NCBI RefSeq assembly: GCF_000214375.1
Contig: NC_015578.1
Location: 310,001-374,000 of the forward strand
Source of the DNA: Treponema primitia ZAS-2
Lineage (GTDB): Bacteria > Spirochaetota > Spirochaetia > Treponematales > Breznakiellaceae
Length of the DNA: 64,000 nt
Reading direction: 5' to 3'
Shown here piece after piece: positions 1 through 47,307 of the stretch. The position numbers and the translations under genes are program-made. A model generated the notes under the pieces. The model was given only the letters and a program-made list of their open reading frames with translations, made no database searches and was not told where the DNA came from. The first letter of the stretch is position 1. Each line of letters begins with the position of its first letter.

Positions 1-20
1 GTGGTCAATGGAGGAATCAA

Positions 21-896
21 ATGTCTAAATACACCCAGGAAATAGATTACCTAATCGTGGGGGCAGACATTTCCGAAGAAGAAATCGCGGAAATAATTAC
101 AGAAGCCGACAGGATAACCCTGGAAAACAAGGAAACTACGGAAAAAATCGCGGAAGCATACCTTAAGAAAAGCCAATGCTTGCAGAAGCTGGAAAAGTAC
201 AAGGAAAGCGAGTTGGTTATTGAGAAAGCGCTGGAACTGTCGCCCGAAATGGCCGAAGCTATTACCCAGTTGGGAAATATTTTTCGGAATGAAAAAAACT
301 ATGATGAGGCAATAGCCTACTATACGGAGGCAATACGGCTTAAACCGGATTATGCGGCGGCATTTAACAACCGGGGGGCCAGCTATGACCTCAAGGTTGA
401 TTTCCTTCAGACAATAGCGGACTATACCGAAGCGATACGCCTAAGACCGGATTATGCAATTGCCTATTATAACCGGGGAAACAAATACAAAGAGCTGGGA
501 CAGTTTGAGCAAGCCCGAGCGGATTGGGGAGAAGCTATTCGGCTAAAACCATTTTTAAAACATTTGGTAAACAGAGAAATCATCATCTTTTTAAGTGCCT
601 CTGAGGACACTTCGGATAATGAGGAAATTGAACAGCTTACCCGTGCAATATACCTTAATCCCGATGATGCGACTCTTTTTCATAACCGAGGTTGGTTTTA
701 TGCCATGTGCGGTGAATATGACAAGACAATTGCCGGTGGGGTCGAAGCTATACGACTTGATCCGGACTCAGCCACTGGTTTTGAAAAACGGGGGAAGGTT
801 TATGAGAAATTATTGAGAAAGCTTGACAAAGTGGCGAAGCGGCAAGGCTTGAAGAGGATCATTGTAATGGAAGCGATATTACAATTAAATTCATAG
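21..896 (+). CDS. TPR-repeat protein, 3' end decayed
   Basis: A 291-residue protein of tandem 34-residue TPR units, seen as repeated NRG.xY..kG..d.AiaDY.eAIrL.PdY blocks (roughly residues 80-260). TPRs are protein-protein interaction scaffolds; no enzymatic domain is visible and there is no signal peptide. A ribosome-binding site (GGAGG) precedes the ATG. It is a close paralogue of the genes at 1107 and 3490. Compared with the 3490 copy, its last ~25 residues are out of frame: the GAAGAGGA stretch near 830-850 matches the paralogue only in another frame, so the reading frame has probably shifted and the protein is truncated. It may still be translated, but I regard it as an eroding copy. Partner unknown. 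Confidence 0.8.
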   Translation: MSKYTQEIDYLIVGADISEEEIAEIITEADRITLENKETTEKIAEAYLKKSQCLQKLEKYKESELVIEKALELSPEMAEAITQLGNIFRNEKNYDEAIAYYTEAIRLKPDYAAAFNNRGASYDLKVDFLQTIADYTEAIRLRPDYAIAYYNRGNKYKELGQFEQARADWGEAIRLKPFLKHLVNREIIIFLSASEDTSDNEEIEQLTRAIYLNPDDATLFHNRGWFYAMCGEYDKTIAGGVEAIRLDPDSATGFEKRGKVYEKLLRKLDKVAKRQGLKRIIVMEAILQLNS

Positions 897-926
897 TCAG
901 TTTTGTTTACAAGGATATACTGTAAT

Positions 927-1056
927 TACTTGATGCAGAAGGACTAATTGCAGAAAACAAGAAATTCCTGAGAAAATAGCAGAGGCGTATCCTAATGTCT
1001 ATAGAATTGTTGCGAATGTTACTTGGTTTGTCTTTTGGGGTATAAATAATGTTTGA
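927..1056 (+). pseudogene. Remnants of a TPR gene and of a YccF-like gene
   Basis: No intact gene. Bases 927-992 resemble an internal piece of the 1107 TPR gene (around 1728-1795: GATGCAGAA...CCTGAGAAAATAGC). Bases 1012-1056 encode ANVTWFVFWGINNV then stop, which matches the peptide ANVIWFIFGGIKYV encoded at 2778-2819. The latter has the look of the N-terminus of the YccF (DUF307) inner-membrane family. The block is therefore a degraded copy of the arrangement preserved at 2697-2819. Confidence 0.55.
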
Positions 1057-1114
1057 TTCTAAGAAAATTCCACCTGAAGTTCTTCATTTAGCATCGGAGG
1101 AAGCAAATGTCTAA
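1049..1114 (+). pseudogene. Truncated copy (21 codons) of the 2812 gene
   Basis: ATGTTTGATTCTAAG at 1049 begins a 21-codon reading frame, MFDSKKIPPEVLHLASEEANV, that matches the first residues of the 181-residue protein at 2812 (MFDSKDIPPEALHLAKEAAN). Its stop overlaps the ATG of the TPR gene at 1107, and its last codons supply that gene's GGAGGAAG ribosome-binding site. This looks like a recombination junction that fused the head of one gene to the start of a TPR paralogue. Family unknown. Confidence 0.6.
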
Positions 1115-2696
1115 ATACAACCTGGAAATAAATTACCTGTTCATGGGTGCAGACATTTCCGAAGAGGAAATCGCGGAAATAATCACAGAAGCCGACAGGA
1201 TAACCCTGGAAAACAATGAAACCCCGGAAAAGATCGCAGAAGCGTATCTCAAAAAAAGCCAATGCTTGCAGAAGCTGGGGAAGCGCCAGGAAAGCAGGGA
1301 ACCTCTGGAGAAGGCGCTGGAACTGGCGCCCGCAATGGCTGAAGCCATTACCCAGTTGGGGAACATTCTTCACGGAGAAGAAAACTACGATGAGGCAATA
1401 GCCCGTTATACCGAAGCGATACAGTTAAAACCGGATTATGCGGCGGCATTTAACAACCGGGGGGTCAGTTTTGCTGGAAAAGGTGAATATAATAAGGCGA
1501 TAGCGGACTATACGGAAGCAATACAGCTTAAACCGGATTATGCAATTGCCTATTATAACCGTGGAAATAAATACAGGAACATTGGAAAGTTTGAGCAAGC
1601 TCTGGTGGATCGGGAAGAAGCCATTCGGCTAAAACCAGGTTTAAAAGATTTGGGAATGGATCTGCCTCTTGATATTGTTCTTAGACACATAGTTGGTTCT
1701 GATGCCGATGAAATTTTTGAAATGTACAATGATGCAGAAAAAGTAATTAAGGAGGAAAAAGAAAAACCTGAGAAAATAGCGGAAACGTATCTTAAGCAAA
1801 GCTTATATTTATTTTTGAACGAAAAAGAAGAAAATGGCAAAGAAGCCATCAAAAAAGCTGCTGATTTATATTCCGGCATGGATGAGGCGGATGTCATCGT
1901 ACTTAAATCAGATCTTGTCAGAGCTTTAAATGTCCATGGAACAACCGTGGGAGAAGGATTTGATGAAGGAATTGCCGAATGGACCGATGTCATAGGTAAA
2001 AATTCGTGGGAAAGAGCTATTTTTTTTAATAACCGGGGCAATACATTTATTGAAAAAGGCAGGTATATCAAGGCTTTTAGCGCATGGCAAGAGGCGATGC
2101 AACTGGAAAAAACAAGCGATGAAAGTAAAATAATATTTGACCAGGCTATTGCCGATTATACCAAGGCCATGGTATTAAATAAATCGACTCCGCGTAATTT
2201 TGCGAGAATGCTTAAAAACCGGAGTATTGCCTATATCGAAATCGGTGCATACGACAAAGCTATAGCGGATTGTGATGAAGCCCTGGCGCTCAGTAAAGAT
2301 GAAGGCGTTTTTATCTTGTACCACCGCGGAATTGCTTATGACGCCAGTGGTGATCGCGAGCAGGCTATTGCCGATTACAGCAGGGCTATAGAATTAGCCC
2401 CCTGCAATTACGAGATGCTGTTCTATGAGCTATTCTATAGCCGGGGCCTTGCCCATGATGAAAAGGGTGAGTACGAACTTGCCATTGCAGACTATACCCA
2501 GGCGATATGTATTGCCGCTGCAATGTTTTCCCCTGGCGATGCCTTTGATGCATACTGCAACCGGGGCCTTGTCTACAAAGCGCTGGGACAGCGGGATAAG
2601 GCGGAAGCGGATTTTGCCAAATTGGACGGGAAAACTGCCTATAAACGGGGAAGAAAAAAGGGTATTTTGTCTACTTTAATTAATTTAATCGGATAA
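1107..2696 (+). CDS. TPR-repeat protein, longest paralogue
   Basis: A 529-residue cytoplasmic TPR protein. The N-terminal ~70 residues (MSKYNLEINYLF...) form a module shared with the two neighbours. TPR units follow at about 75-180, then a charged helical stretch (about 190-270) and a second TPR block (about 290-515) with typical YNRGxxY and AIADYxxAI signatures. It is the only full-length member of the local family and shows what the truncated copies at 21 and 3490 have lost. A GGAGGAAGCAA site precedes the ATG. It ends in an 11-bp hairpin. Likely a scaffold, partner unknown; no enzymatic domain is visible. Confidence 0.85.
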   Translation: MSKYNLEINYLFMGADISEEEIAEIITEADRITLENNETPEKIAEAYLKKSQCLQKLGKRQESREPLEKALELAPAMAEAITQLGNILHGEENYDEAIARYTEAIQLKPDYAAAFNNRGVSFAGKGEYNKAIADYTEAIQLKPDYAIAYYNRGNKYRNIGKFEQALVDREEAIRLKPGLKDLGMDLPLDIVLRHIVGSDADEIFEMYNDAEKVIKEEKEKPEKIAETYLKQSLYLFLNEKEENGKEAIKKAADLYSGMDEADVIVLKSDLVRALNVHGTTVGEGFDEGIAEWTDVIGKNSWERAIFFNNRGNTFIEKGRYIKAFSAWQEAMQLEKTSDESKIIFDQAIADYTKAMVLNKSTPRNFARMLKNRSIAYIEIGAYDKAIADCDEALALSKDEGVFILYHRGIAYDASGDREQAIADYSRAIELAPCNYEMLFYELFYSRGLAHDEKGEYELAIADYTQAICIAAAMFSPGDAFDAYCNRGLVYKALGQRDKAEADFAKLDGKTAYKRGRKKGILSTLINLIG

Positions 2697-2700
2697 ATAG

Positions 2701-2729
2701 TTCAGTCTATCGTTATATGATAGACTGAA
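2701..2729. terminator. 11-bp hairpin after the TPR gene
   Basis: TTCAGTCTATC (2701-2711) pairs perfectly with GATAGACTGAA (2719-2729) over a 7-base loop, a few bases after the stop codon of the TPR gene. No T-tract follows, so it may stabilise the mRNA 3' end or be a weak terminator rather than a standard intrinsic terminator. Confidence 0.5.
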
Positions 2730-2762
2730 ATGATATTATGACTGCGTAAGGAGGAAAATACT

Positions 2763-2819
2763 ATGTCGGCATTAGCTAATGTTATTTGGTTTATATTTGG
2801 GGGTATAAAGTATGTTTGA
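2763..2819 (+). pseudogene. Short YccF-like N-terminal peptide, remnant
   Basis: An 18-codon frame (MSALANVIWFIFGGIKYV) starts with a very good ribosome-binding site (AAGGAGGAAAATACT) and ends inside the ATG of the next gene (ATGTTTGA overlap). The sequence resembles the conserved start of YccF-type membrane proteins (N..W.I.GG), whose full length is over 100 residues, so I read it as the head of a deleted yccF. It may still be translated and couple translation of the downstream gene. A degraded second copy lies at 1012-1056. Confidence 0.45.
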
Positions 2820-3357
2820 TTCTAAGGATATTCCACCTGAAGCTCTTCATTTAGCTAAAGAAGCAGCCAATGCAAAAATAGGCATACTACCTATTGAATT
2901 TCCTAGAAATAATAGGATTATATCAGATACTTTATACAACGAATGTAAAAACATACTCGTTACTCAATTAATAAAAATGGGATTTGTTTCTTGGATTGAA
3001 GGTGATAAAATTTTATTATATTCTCTATATGATTTTGAGATTAAAAAAGTTGATTCTTTGATAGAAATTGAAGGCTATAAAGTTTTTTATTATTGTCCTG
3101 ATTCTGACCCAAATGAAAAATCAGAGCTTATAGATTTAATATATATATGTGAACGTGCGAGCGATTTGGAAATGTCTCACGAAGACATGATACGTGATAC
3201 GGAAAACATGATACGTATCATGATTGAAGGTTATTTTGAGGGCATGAAGTTCATTAGGAGAGTTAATGCAAAATTAGAAAAACTTGAAGAAGAGAAGAAG
3301 AAAGGCAGGATTGATGATGATAAGACAAAGAAAACAAGTTATTATTGGAAAAAATAA
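2812..3357 (+). CDS. Unrecognised AT-rich protein
   Basis: A 181-residue protein that I do not recognise. The N-terminal third is neutral; the C-terminal ~60 residues are strongly charged (EKLEEEKKKGRIDDDKTKK), probably a coiled coil or flexible helix. No signal peptide or membrane segment. The gene is far richer in A+T, with ATA, TTA and AAA codons, than the TPR genes on both sides, which suggests a different origin. Translation is probably coupled to the 18-codon peptide whose stop overlaps its start. A 21-codon fragment of a homologue at 1049 shows it was once duplicated along with its neighbours. Confidence 0.65.
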   Translation: MFDSKDIPPEALHLAKEAANAKIGILPIEFPRNNRIISDTLYNECKNILVTQLIKMGFVSWIEGDKILLYSLYDFEIKKVDSLIEIEGYKVFYYCPDSDPNEKSELIDLIYICERASDLEMSHEDMIRDTENMIRIMIEGYFEGMKFIRRVNAKLEKLEEEKKKGRIDDDKTKKTSYYWKK

Positions 3358-3360
3358 ACG

Positions 3361-3408
3361 ATAAAAGTAAAACACTGTTTGACCAGGCTATAAAAGATTA
3401 TACAGAGG
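3361..3408 (+). pseudogene. Fragment of a TPR gene
   Basis: This stretch (GTTTGACCAGGCTATAAAAG and flanks) resembles positions ~2115-2165 inside the large TPR gene (ATTTGACCAGGCTATTGCCG). It lies directly after the AT-rich gene and before the next TPR gene, with no open frame of its own, so it is a relic of another array copy. The rest of 3409-3489 shows no gene. Confidence 0.5.
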
Positions 3409-3489
3409 GTAGTAACTAAAAAACAAGCCTATGCGTCGGTGGTAGCCAATGAAATGGAGAAGCGAAGTGGACGGTGAAGGTAAAAAAAT

Positions 3490-4581
3490 ATGATTTCTCA
3501 TAAAATAGCGAAATATGACCTGGATCTGAATTATTTGTTTCGAGGCACAGATATTTCAGATGCGGAACTTGTCGAAATAATCGCAGAAGCCGACAGGATA
3601 ATCCTGGAAAACAAGGTAACTCCGGAAACATTGGCCGAGGCATATCTTAAAAAAAGCCAGTGTTTGCAGAAGCTGGGGAAATATCAGGAGAGCGAGGCGA
3701 TTATTGAGAAAGCGCTGGAACTGGCGCCCGAAATGGCCGAAGCCATTACCCAGTTGGGAAATATTTTTCGGAATGAAAAAAACTATGATGAGGCAATAGC
3801 CCACTACACGGAAGCGATACGGCTTAAACCGGACTATGCGGCGGCCTTTAACAACCGGGGGGTCAGCTATGCCCGCAAGGGTGACTCTGTTCAGGCAATA
3901 GCGGACTATACCAAAGCGATACGCCTAAGACCGGATTATGAGACCGCCTATTATAACCGGGGAAACGAATACAAAGAGCTGGGGCAGGTAGAGCAAGCCT
4001 TGGCGGATCGGGAAGAAGCTATTCGGCTAAAACCGTTTTTAAAATATTTTGGAAACAAAACTATTCATTATTTTTCAAATGTCTCTGAGGACCCTTTTGA
4101 TAATGAGGAAATTGAACAGCTTACCGGTGCAATATACCTTAACCCCAATAATGCAACTCTTTTTAATAACCGGGCTTGGCTTTATGCCAGGCGCGGCGAA
4201 TATGACAAGGCAATTGCCGGCTGGACAGAAGCTATACGACTTGATCCGGAAAACACTTTTTATTTGGAAGGCCGGGGAGATGTGTATGCCGATAAACTGG
4301 GCGAATATGATAAGGCTATCGCGGACTATTCTGAAATTATACGCCTTGAGCCGTACTCAGCCGGTTGCTTTGAAAAGCAGGGGAAAATTTATGAGACATT
4401 GGGACAGCTTGACAAAGCGGCGGCGGATCGCGGCGAAGCGGCAAAGCTGGAAGAGGAGAATTCTGATATTGGTATAGATATTAAACATATGCTTGGGTCT
4501 ATGGATTTTAACAAATTTCTTGAAATGCACGATGATGCAGAAGAAATAATCGAAGAAAACAAAGAAAGCCCTGAAAAATAG
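3490..4581 (+). CDS. TPR-repeat protein, truncated by a frameshift
   Basis: A 363-residue TPR paralogue of the genes at 21 and 1107, with the same N-terminal module and about seven TPR units (residues ~80-330). The frame ends at CCTGAAAAATAG (4570-4581). In the 1107 gene the same place reads CCTGAGAAAATAGCGG and stays open, so loss of one base created the stop. Only ~40 bases of degenerate homologous sequence follow before the trxB stop codon, so the second half of the ancestral gene is gone. A weak GAAGG site precedes the ATG. The TPR part may still fold and work as a scaffold. Confidence 0.8.
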   Translation: MISHKIAKYDLDLNYLFRGTDISDAELVEIIAEADRIILENKVTPETLAEAYLKKSQCLQKLGKYQESEAIIEKALELAPEMAEAITQLGNIFRNEKNYDEAIAHYTEAIRLKPDYAAAFNNRGVSYARKGDSVQAIADYTKAIRLRPDYETAYYNRGNEYKELGQVEQALADREEAIRLKPFLKYFGNKTIHYFSNVSEDPFDNEEIEQLTGAIYLNPNNATLFNNRAWLYARRGEYDKAIAGWTEAIRLDPENTFYLEGRGDVYADKLGEYDKAIADYSEIIRLEPYSAGCFEKQGKIYETLGQLDKAAADRGEAAKLEEENSDIGIDIKHMLGSMDFNKFLEMHDDAEEIIEENKESPEK

Positions 4582-21656: not shown

Positions 21657-21866
21657 TAACAAGGGTTTTCCTTTATACCGGATTTTCTTACTATACCTTA
21701 GAGTGTCATAGGAAAATAGTCAATTATGTCCGAAGTCTCTTCCGCCTGATGCGGGGGTAAAAGGGCCTGGTTGTGACAGAGCGGCTTTTTTGAAAAATTG
21801 TATTGATACTTGACTAGGAGCATAAAACATTATTAAACTTAGATTAATAGTTCGATTGATGAATTC

Positions 21867-22045
21867 GGGAGAGAATGGAAGCGCATGGTGCGTTTTCGTC
21901 GCCGAAGGGGCAAACGCACAAAACTCTCAGGCAAATGTACCGAATTTTGACGACACTCCGAAAAAGCCGTGATGATTGAAACACGGCGCCGAAGGGGCAA
22001 CTCTCTGTTTAGCGGGGAAGAATCTCTCAGGTTGTAGACGGAGAG
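21867..22045 (+). ncRNA. Tandem glycine riboswitch
   Basis: Two gcvT-type glycine aptamers in series. Aptamer 1 (about 21867-21960) holds GCCGAAGGGGCAAA and ACTCTCAGGCAAA; aptamer 2 (about 21970-22045) holds CGCCGAAGGGGCAA and TCTCTCAGG. These are the conserved cores of the class. Glycine binding normally switches on glycine cleavage genes, and gcvT starts 87 bases after the second aptamer. Confidence 0.95.
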
Positions 22046-34708: not shown

Positions 34709-34831
34709 TCCGGGAGGGATGGGGATTACCCCCGGCCCCTAACCTGTAGAATCTGCTTGCGGAGCCCAGTAGGTCTCCTCCAGCAGGGAATTCCAGAGAC
34801 GGGGCCGGGAATAATCCCCATCCCTCCCGGA
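34709..34831 (-). repeat. Long stem-loop element, copy 1
   Basis: Two 30-bp arms (34709-34738 and 34802-34831; 28 of 30 paired) flank a 63-base loop; the innermost extra pair is 34739/34801. The loop read on the minus strand (GTCTCTGGAATTCCCTGC...) is clearly related to the loop of the element at 45861-45985 on the plus strand. Homologous orientation is therefore minus here. In that strand the two mismatched positions become G-U pairs. Confidence 0.75.
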
Positions 34832-45742: not shown

Positions 45743-45750
45743 CCCCTTTC

Positions 45751-45840
45751 CAAAGCGCCGCCGAAGGCGCGCCCAAGCCATTCCATGTAGCGTTTCCAAA
45801 CTCCCCAAGCCCCGCCGGAGGCGCAACCAAGGCCATCCCC
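45751..45840. repeat. GC-rich imperfect direct repeat
   Basis: AAGCGCCGCCGAAGGCGC (from 45753) and AAGCCCCGCCGGAGGCGC (from 45807), each followed by a related (A)CCAAG.CCAT.CC tail. Two ~33-base units. The flanking stem-loop element follows at 45861. No open frame in 45743-46002. Confidence 0.5.
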
Positions 45841-45860
45841 CCCAGGCTTTTAACCAAGGC

Positions 45861-45985
45861 GCCGGCAGGGTGGGGGAGCCTTCGGGGGGCGTCTATGGAA
45901 TTCCCCGCCGTAGCAGACCGCGTAGCGGGCTGACGGAGGCGGACTCAACATGTTAGCCCCCCGAAGGCTTCCCCGCCCTGCCGGC
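45861..45985 (+). repeat. Long stem-loop element, copy 2
   Basis: 30-base arms 45861-45890 and 45956-45985 pair along their whole length: 28 Watson-Crick pairs and two G-U wobbles on the plus strand. The 65-base loop (GTCTATGGAATTCCCCGC...) aligns with the loop of the element at 34709-34831 in inverse orientation. The element lies between two convergent genes. Confidence 0.8.
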
Positions 45986-46002: not shown

Positions 46003-47118
46003 CTAGTATTCTTCCCGCAGCCAAACTTCCCGGAAACCCGCATTGTAGAGCCGTTCCCCCACGCCCTGCATCTCAAAGCCCCGAATCCAGGGAATGAGTA
46101 CCCGGGTCATGGTGCCCTGTTGTTCAAAGACCGGGCTGAACCCGGCGTTTAACAGGCGGTCAAAAACCTCCTGGGCGTTTATCCGGGCTTTGAAGGAGCC
46201 TACCTGGACCCGGTACACCGTGTTATCACGGGCGCCTGGCATATGGGGTATCACCTTGACTGCGGGACCTTGACGGGGTGGCGGGGGGGCCAGAGTCGGA
46301 GCAGGCGCATAGGCCGGCGGGGCCGGAACTTGGGCCGGGCCGTTTACCCTGGGCCGTTCAATCCCTGAAATCCAGGGTGCGGCCAGTTCCGGCAGCAGGG
46401 GATCAGTGGGTATAGGCCGGGGAATAAAGGGTTCCTGCTCCCAAGGGGGAACAATGGGTTCAATTTCTGAGGTTGGGGTTATTCCGGACGGTGCCGGGGA
46501 GGCTGCGGCAGGGATCGGCACGGAAGCCACCGGGGGCGGGGGAAGGGTATCAGAAGCAGCCGGCTCAGATGTTGCAGCTACTGGCTCCGGGGCATCTGTA
46601 GGCCCCGGGGTGACAGCAGCCACAGGCGCCGCTGGGGTAGTTACCCCAGGCGCGGGTATTGTAGCCGATGTTGGCGCAACAGCTACAGGCGCCGCCGGGA
46701 CAGTTGCCCCAGGCGCGGGTGTGGCAGCCGGTGTTACCGCCGCAGTAGCTGTTGCTGCTACAGGCGCCGCAGTTGTTCCTGCGTCCTGATTCAATATCGC
46801 TTCAATGGTTACCTGGGTAGTATCGTCAAACATGGCAATGGCCGCGGCTGCGGCAGGGGAAAGGTTTATGATCCGGGAATTTGACTGGCCTATACGCTCA
46901 GTAATTGTTACCGTGGCCTCGGCGCCCGTCTCCAGATTGGTTACCTTAACTTCCTGGCCTATAGGCAGGATGGCGTGACCTGCAACGAGTTCATCCGATT
47001 CCAGATCCTGGGTTGCCGCACCGGTTTGAACATAATTCAATGGTTTGGCCTGGGCTGCGCAAATCGCAGTAAGCATTACACTGAACAACAGTACGGTAAG
47101 CACACGTTTAATCATCAT
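46003..47118 (-). CDS. Exported RlpA-like protein with SPOR domain
   Basis: A 371-residue exported protein. Signal peptide MMIKRVLTVLLFSVMLTAIC. Residues ~25-110 resemble the double-psi beta-barrel of RlpA (LVAGHAILPIGQEVKVTNLE, then ITERIGQSNSRIINLSPAA), which binds or cleaves peptidoglycan glycan strands. A long Pro/Ala/Thr-rich linker follows (~110-295). The last ~75 residues are a SPOR domain (YRVQVGSFKARINAQEVFDR), which binds denuded glycan at division sites. I start at ATG 47118, though ATG 47115 has better spacing to AAAGGGG. Role in the envelope is inferred. Confidence 0.8.
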   Translation of the reverse strand: MMIKRVLTVLLFSVMLTAICAAQAKPLNYVQTGAATQDLESDELVAGHAILPIGQEVKVTNLETGAEATVTITERIGQSNSRIINLSPAAAAAIAMFDDTTQVTIEAILNQDAGTTAAPVAATATAAVTPAATPAPGATVPAAPVAVAPTSATIPAPGVTTPAAPVAAVTPGPTDAPEPVAATSEPAASDTLPPPPVASVPIPAAASPAPSGITPTSEIEPIVPPWEQEPFIPRPIPTDPLLPELAAPWISGIERPRVNGPAQVPAPPAYAPAPTLAPPPPRQGPAVKVIPHMPGARDNTVYRVQVGSFKARINAQEVFDRLLNAGFSPVFEQQGTMTRVLIPWIRGFEMQGVGERLYNAGFREVWLREEY

Positions 47119-47307
47119 TATTCCCCTTTCATCGGGTTTTCCCACAGCGGCGCCACAGGCCGGCCCCGGTAATTTGGTCTAGTATTACCTAGTATTACCT
47201 ATACTAAGGGAAAAACCAAGGTCGTAATCTGAATTTCGGCATTTTTAGTCTTGGATATTACCTAAAAAAATACCAGCCAAGGAGAAATTGCTTTGCTGTA
47301 TGGGGTG

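Follow-up and report, generated by a model that had tools for sequence, protein, structure and literature searches.

A long stem-loop at positions 45861-45985 of the 64,000-nucleotide stretch of the Treponema primitia ZAS-2 chromosome analysed here (hereafter the window; bases 310001-374000 of a home genome that consists of a single contig of 4,059,867 bp) raises the question of whether it is a structured RNA, a mobile element or both. An initial annotation, which knew two of the about 49 copies of the element, described a stem of 28 Watson-Crick and two G-U pairs, and this description is accurate. The G-rich 5' arm of helix P1 (45861-45890, plus strand, 30 nt) pairs with the C-rich 3' arm (45956-45985, plus strand, 30 nt) over 30 positions, the two exceptions being G-T in the DNA; arm sequence varies among the copies and complementarity is kept. 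Between the arms lies a conserved core of 65 nt (GTCTATGGAATTCC...CAACATGTTA, 45891-45955, plus strand), which carries the internal helices P2, P3 and P4 as well as conserved internal loops. The 5' side of P2 (TATG, 45894-45897, plus strand) has its partner CATG at 45949-45952 and the 5' side of P3 (CCGCC, 45905-45909, plus strand) has its partner GGCGG at 45938-45942, with coordinates that were converted by hand from alignment columns. P4 is the apical hairpin (45914-45932, plus strand), whose length and sequence vary among the copies and whose CAG/CTG part is less well supported, as 5 of 27 aligned copies leave two of its pairs open. The RNA fold of 45861-45985 with short flanks reached -103.3 kcal/mol, compared with a shuffled mean of -62.0 (z = -10.3), and none of 200 shuffles equalled it. 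Judging from the sequence, the intergenic 5' flank (45743-45860, plus strand) contains degenerate repeats, CCAAG..CGCCGCCGAAGGCGC, that resemble and may be additional 5' halves of the same copy type. The second copy in the window, copy 1 of the initial annotation, has 31-bp arms and its core on the minus strand (34709-34831); the covariance model matched it at 34712-34828 (minus strand, 119 bits). As had been pointed out, with both copies oriented by their shared core, the inner arms differ in sequence between the two and are still complementary.

A known Rfam RNA family was rejected because no score at the element exceeded the gathering threshold, and relaxed thresholds yielded chance-level matches only. 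Within the window, Rfam matches were limited to two glycine riboswitches, which form tandem aptamers at 21856-22045. A separate feature of the window is the region 16-4580 with its three gene-sized repeats, which have diverged from one another, contain internal repeats of 102 nt (34 codons) and perhaps encode TPR-type proteins.

The alignment of 27 copies revealed that the pairing is kept by paired changes. Double-sided changes were found in 33 of 42 pairs, 98.1% of the cells were paired and the arms could be aligned without any gaps. The covariation score was 0.719, compared with 0.187 for shuffled and 0.104-0.195 for slid versions, the slide control favouring the proposed structure because this structure was derived from the same sequences. 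In the core, the loop positions are fixed and the short helices covary. For instance, one pair of P2 occurs as C-G in 17, as A-U in 8 and as U-A in 2 copies, and four of the five pairs of P3 show double changes. Moreover, the U-G pair closing P2 is invariant, and the loop sequences GTCT/GTTA and GGAATTC are nearly so.

Among the home copies, double Watson-Crick changes affect about 30% of the stem pairs, compared with a difference of 3-9% per site in the core, and the changes in the arms include many flips from G-C to C-G. Relative to the core, this rate is high for compensation in single steps, and palindrome-templated correction has to be reckoned with as a serious contributor; core divergence is a poor clock because the core itself is constrained. 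It is therefore possible, though we hold it to be less than probable, that the paired changes reflect quasi-palindrome correction at the DNA level, by template switching in the hairpin, and not selection on the fold. The disparity between arms and core and the many flips fit this explanation, and mutations that extend the identity between the arms of quasi-palindromes are known from yeast (PMC3820800). However, such correction predicts neither an excess of G-T pairs on one strand, as observed at home and in the relative G012, nor short core helices that covary next to conserved unpaired loops. It may also act together with the transposition that we favour below.

The initial annotation had further stated that all non-Watson-Crick pairs are G-U on the same strand. 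This is true for the two copies in the window, but it does not hold as a rule: read on the core strand, 39 intact home copies contain, within their first 26 pairs, 45 G-T, 6 A-C and 8 other combinations. More G-T than A-C pairs are present in 27 of these copies and the reverse is the case in three. Sorted by the chromosome strand of the copy, the ratios of G-T to A-C are 28:2 and 17:4. The bias is thus shared by copies of either chromosome strand, which in pairs lie next to each other, and is not a replication-strand effect. Counting distinct sequence contexts, by which double counting of inherited changes is limited, gave 35:6 for the home genome, or 41:9 with a symmetric aligner (p = 5.6e-6). 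The same bias is seen in G012 (12:0 in distinct contexts) and in a set of nine copies from other genomes (15:3). In contrast, the high-copy relatives G021 (19:18), G025 (10:7) and G024 (8:5) are without bias in distinct contexts, and a raw excess of 27:3 in G025 goes back largely to one inherited pair. The bias was counted in eight ways, and the figures relied on stem from one method applied to all genomes. The G-T bias is real at home but does not extend to the family as a whole; because of the three unbiased relatives, the strand rule is not general. C-A pairs, which had been named beforehand as evidence against an RNA, do occur to some extent, namely as the six at home and at near parity with G-T in G021.

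The DNA search and the covariance model together located the element at about 49 distinct places in the home genome, partial copies counted. The DNA search gave 31 matches, one of which is the element's own reverse strand, and the covariance model, which was built on the 27 copies, gave 59, some of which are reverse-strand shadows of the palindrome. According to a simple codon-usage gene model, none of the about 49 copies overlaps a gene, all of them being intergenic. They are scattered over 0.11-3.17 Mb of the chromosome, and the covariance model search found no copy in the last ~0.9 Mb (3.17-4.06 Mb). Eleven loci contain two copies with cores 190-450 bp apart, and all 11 show the divergent, minus-then-plus arrangement in which the 3' sides point outward. 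The two copies of the window also follow one another as minus then plus; they were not treated as one unit because 11 kb and the genes for DNA polymerase III alpha, RecG and other housekeeping functions separate them. The home copies are found near the edges of genes, and the gene on the 3' side is usually the closer one, which would suit a cis-regulatory leader or terminator of the neighbouring genes. However, relative to the gene that adjoins their 3' side, the copies have mixed orientations (28 sense and 21 antisense in a hand count), so that the element is no gene leader, and the stem is not followed by a T-run. A regulatory role of this kind is very improbable.

The covariance-model search of related genomes, which had been recommended with the initial annotation, detected homologues in 10 of 59 genomes, home included, with up to 33 copies in one relative (G021). 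Most genomes of the same family lack the element, and these absence counts are soft because many of the relatives are incomplete assemblies. A phylum-wide search of 296 genomes with stricter filters added a match in one more genome, and the element family was seen in this analysis only within one Treponema-related family. The homologues in other genera have a common layout and different stems. Outside the home genome, G012 has three divergent pairs of copies as well, and G024 has one that is wider. The gene next to the element (46003-47145) has homologues in the same genus that are at most 67% identical, at which level orthology is not assured. A pattern scan of GTDB genomes returned three loci, all from unrelated phyla and by pattern match alone; two loci on viral contigs that came from the pattern scan were discarded as coding-like stretches that fail the covariance model. 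For the termite-gut treponemes, the element may account for repeats at the contig ends of genome assemblies.

The signs of mobility are clearest in G025, which belongs to a different genus. There, the same hairpin is located within an element of ~240 bp that has 13-bp terminal inverted repeats and sharp ends (CTAAACTTGACCC / GGGTCAAGTTTAG), beyond which the flanks are unrelated. A 9-bp target duplication matching at 8 or more of the 9 positions flanks 5 of the 15 scored copies, whereas not one of the 210 mismatched controls reached as much as 7 of 9. Three more likely duplications of 8 bp were recognised by eye (L155, L152 and L163), and L146, which is outside the scored set, carries GGCCTTGTT on both sides. 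In the home genome, the copy at 1498104 has inverted ends and a perfect 9-bp duplication (CTTACCAGG), and it is the only locus with a clean duplication. The terminal inverted repeats at home, which are CAG(C/T)AATTCTCAGTTTA-like, are partial, for instance at 1498104, 2829763 and 2324574, and the ends are eroded elsewhere. Some home copies possess both ends and no duplication, which could be due to recombination between inverted stems. At the two copies of the window, no ends were recognised. Duplications were sought in five ways, and a loose scan of the home genome for inverted repeats and duplications was the one that failed its control; it has no weight because its yield (1/38) was no better than that of the mismatched control (6/38). 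Since the hairpins are homologous by the covariance model and one home locus shows the same signature, we infer that the home copies have moved as in G025. The target-site duplications that the initial annotation had advised looking for thus exist, and the MITE-like origin that it had kept as an alternative is supported by the inverted repeats and duplications of this relative.

Strand-specific folding, inverted pairs and the tolerance of G-T pairs would also fit a folded single-stranded DNA substrate, recognised either by a Y1/HUH transposase, in the way that RAYTs recognise REPs, or by the integrase of an integron, in the way of attC sites. However, IS200/IS605-type enzymes are not known to make target duplications of 8-9 bp such as those present here. 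Moreover, Y1 genes do not track the copy number; none was found in G021, in spite of its 33 copies, or in G023, both of which are incomplete genomes. The conserved part is also apical, which is the reverse of attC. We regard such recognition as improbable, and a REP or REPIN moved by a RAYT was rejected for want of the association with a Y1 transposase.

Taken together, it is likely that the locus belongs to a mobile element whose hairpin is under structural constraint. By the features tested, i.e. multiple copies, lack of coding capacity, terminal inverted repeats and target-site duplications, the element is best read as a new MITE-like family, and the limited literature searched yielded no previous description of it. 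An autonomous partner with the same ends was found neither among the PF01609 genes of five genomes nor at matches to the end motif. The hairpin would lie subterminally in a MITE-like DNA transposon that is non-autonomous and has terminal inverted repeats at its boundaries. On insertion, this transposon would give rise to target duplications of 8-9 bp, such as DDE transposases make, and its transposase is presumably supplied in trans. The full home form would comprise two divergent hairpins, each with its 3' side toward an element end, and single copies such as those of the window may be truncated or recombined remains. Each hairpin would consist of a stem of ~28 bp with nearly free sequence around the conserved, structured core of 65 nt, and would act folded on one strand. 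If the hairpin is mobile and structure-constrained, we lean towards an outward-reading RNA and not single-stranded DNA as the acting form, because G-T pairs are tolerated and the internal loops are conserved. Its job is probably in the spread or control of the element itself and not in host gene regulation. Going further, we tentatively propose that each end of a mini-transposon carries the core hairpin as a structured RNA of a new kind, which would be read outward and would control the movement of the transposon or host transcripts, the stem being free to drift if pairing is kept.

A MITE-like element with an unusually well-kept hairpin is also preferred over a stand-alone RNA gene. The latter would be transcribed as a small RNA of a new class and selected locus by locus, with mobility as past spread only. 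The covarying short helices and invariant internal-loop bases of the core, the invariant U-G pair closing P2 and the G-T bias at home, in G012 and in the low-copy genomes would all suit such an RNA. However, the mixed orientation to adjoining genes, the missing bias in G021, G025 and G024, the absence from most genomes of the family and the lack of an Rfam relative argue against it, and we consider it rather unlikely. From the original proposal of selection on a transcribed RNA, the maintenance of pairing by paired changes and the strand bias at home have remained, but a stand-alone new RNA is no longer the leading reading. Near-perfect 28-bp stems that drift, together with a bias that depends on the genome, offer a system in which experiments could separate the effects of RNA, folded DNA and mutation bias.

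The preferred mobile element shares features with several known systems. In IS10, the stem-loop RNA-OUT is read outward near an element end. The likeness is an analogy of position only; the outward RNA of the element described here is putative, as would be its promoter and any transposase mRNA target. Integron attC sites have conserved basal boxes and a variable apex, whereas the element has a variable base and a conserved apex. The NEMIS/Correia element of Neisseria is a mobile repeat, short and without coding capacity, that has terminal inverted repeats and forms stem-loop transcripts (PMC2229807), and the present element resembles it in being short, non-coding and mobile and in having terminal inverted repeats and a stem-loop; it differs in the nearly free 28-bp stem around a conserved, structured 65-nt core, in the divergent hairpin pairs and in duplications of 8-9 bp. 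The Caulobacter intergenic repeats (CIR) likewise consist of two long hairpin arms with a linker between them (PMC2229807), but here the stems are hypervariable and GANTC is not a recognised feature; no sequence relation to them is apparent. The GTAG/CGTC-tagged REPs and REPINs are intergenic palindromes that often occur as inverted pairs (PMC3733652), and the home core happens to start with CGTC. However, REPs measure 20-40 bp, and in the present element CGTC is internal and not terminal, is not maintained in the relatives and is accompanied by terminal inverted repeats and target duplications.

Several copies show peculiarities of their own. At L117:3405-4033, the spacer of the paired hairpins contains about three tandem repeats of ~100 nt, and other spacers contain repeated element halves. 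At L127:3072-3194 and its flank (genome position 2822071), the 3' arm continues into more than 35 C residues, which is probably a slippage or assembly problem. Finally, a hairpin of ~22 nt, AAGAACCCACTTGCGTGGGGGA, lies within several copies at more than one position (L110:3248-3266, L113:3580-3598 and L125:3240-3258). Diverged forms of it are present in L124 and L117, a variant with the paired change CTCGC/GCGAG exists, and the hairpin is apparently a second, tiny mobile palindrome.
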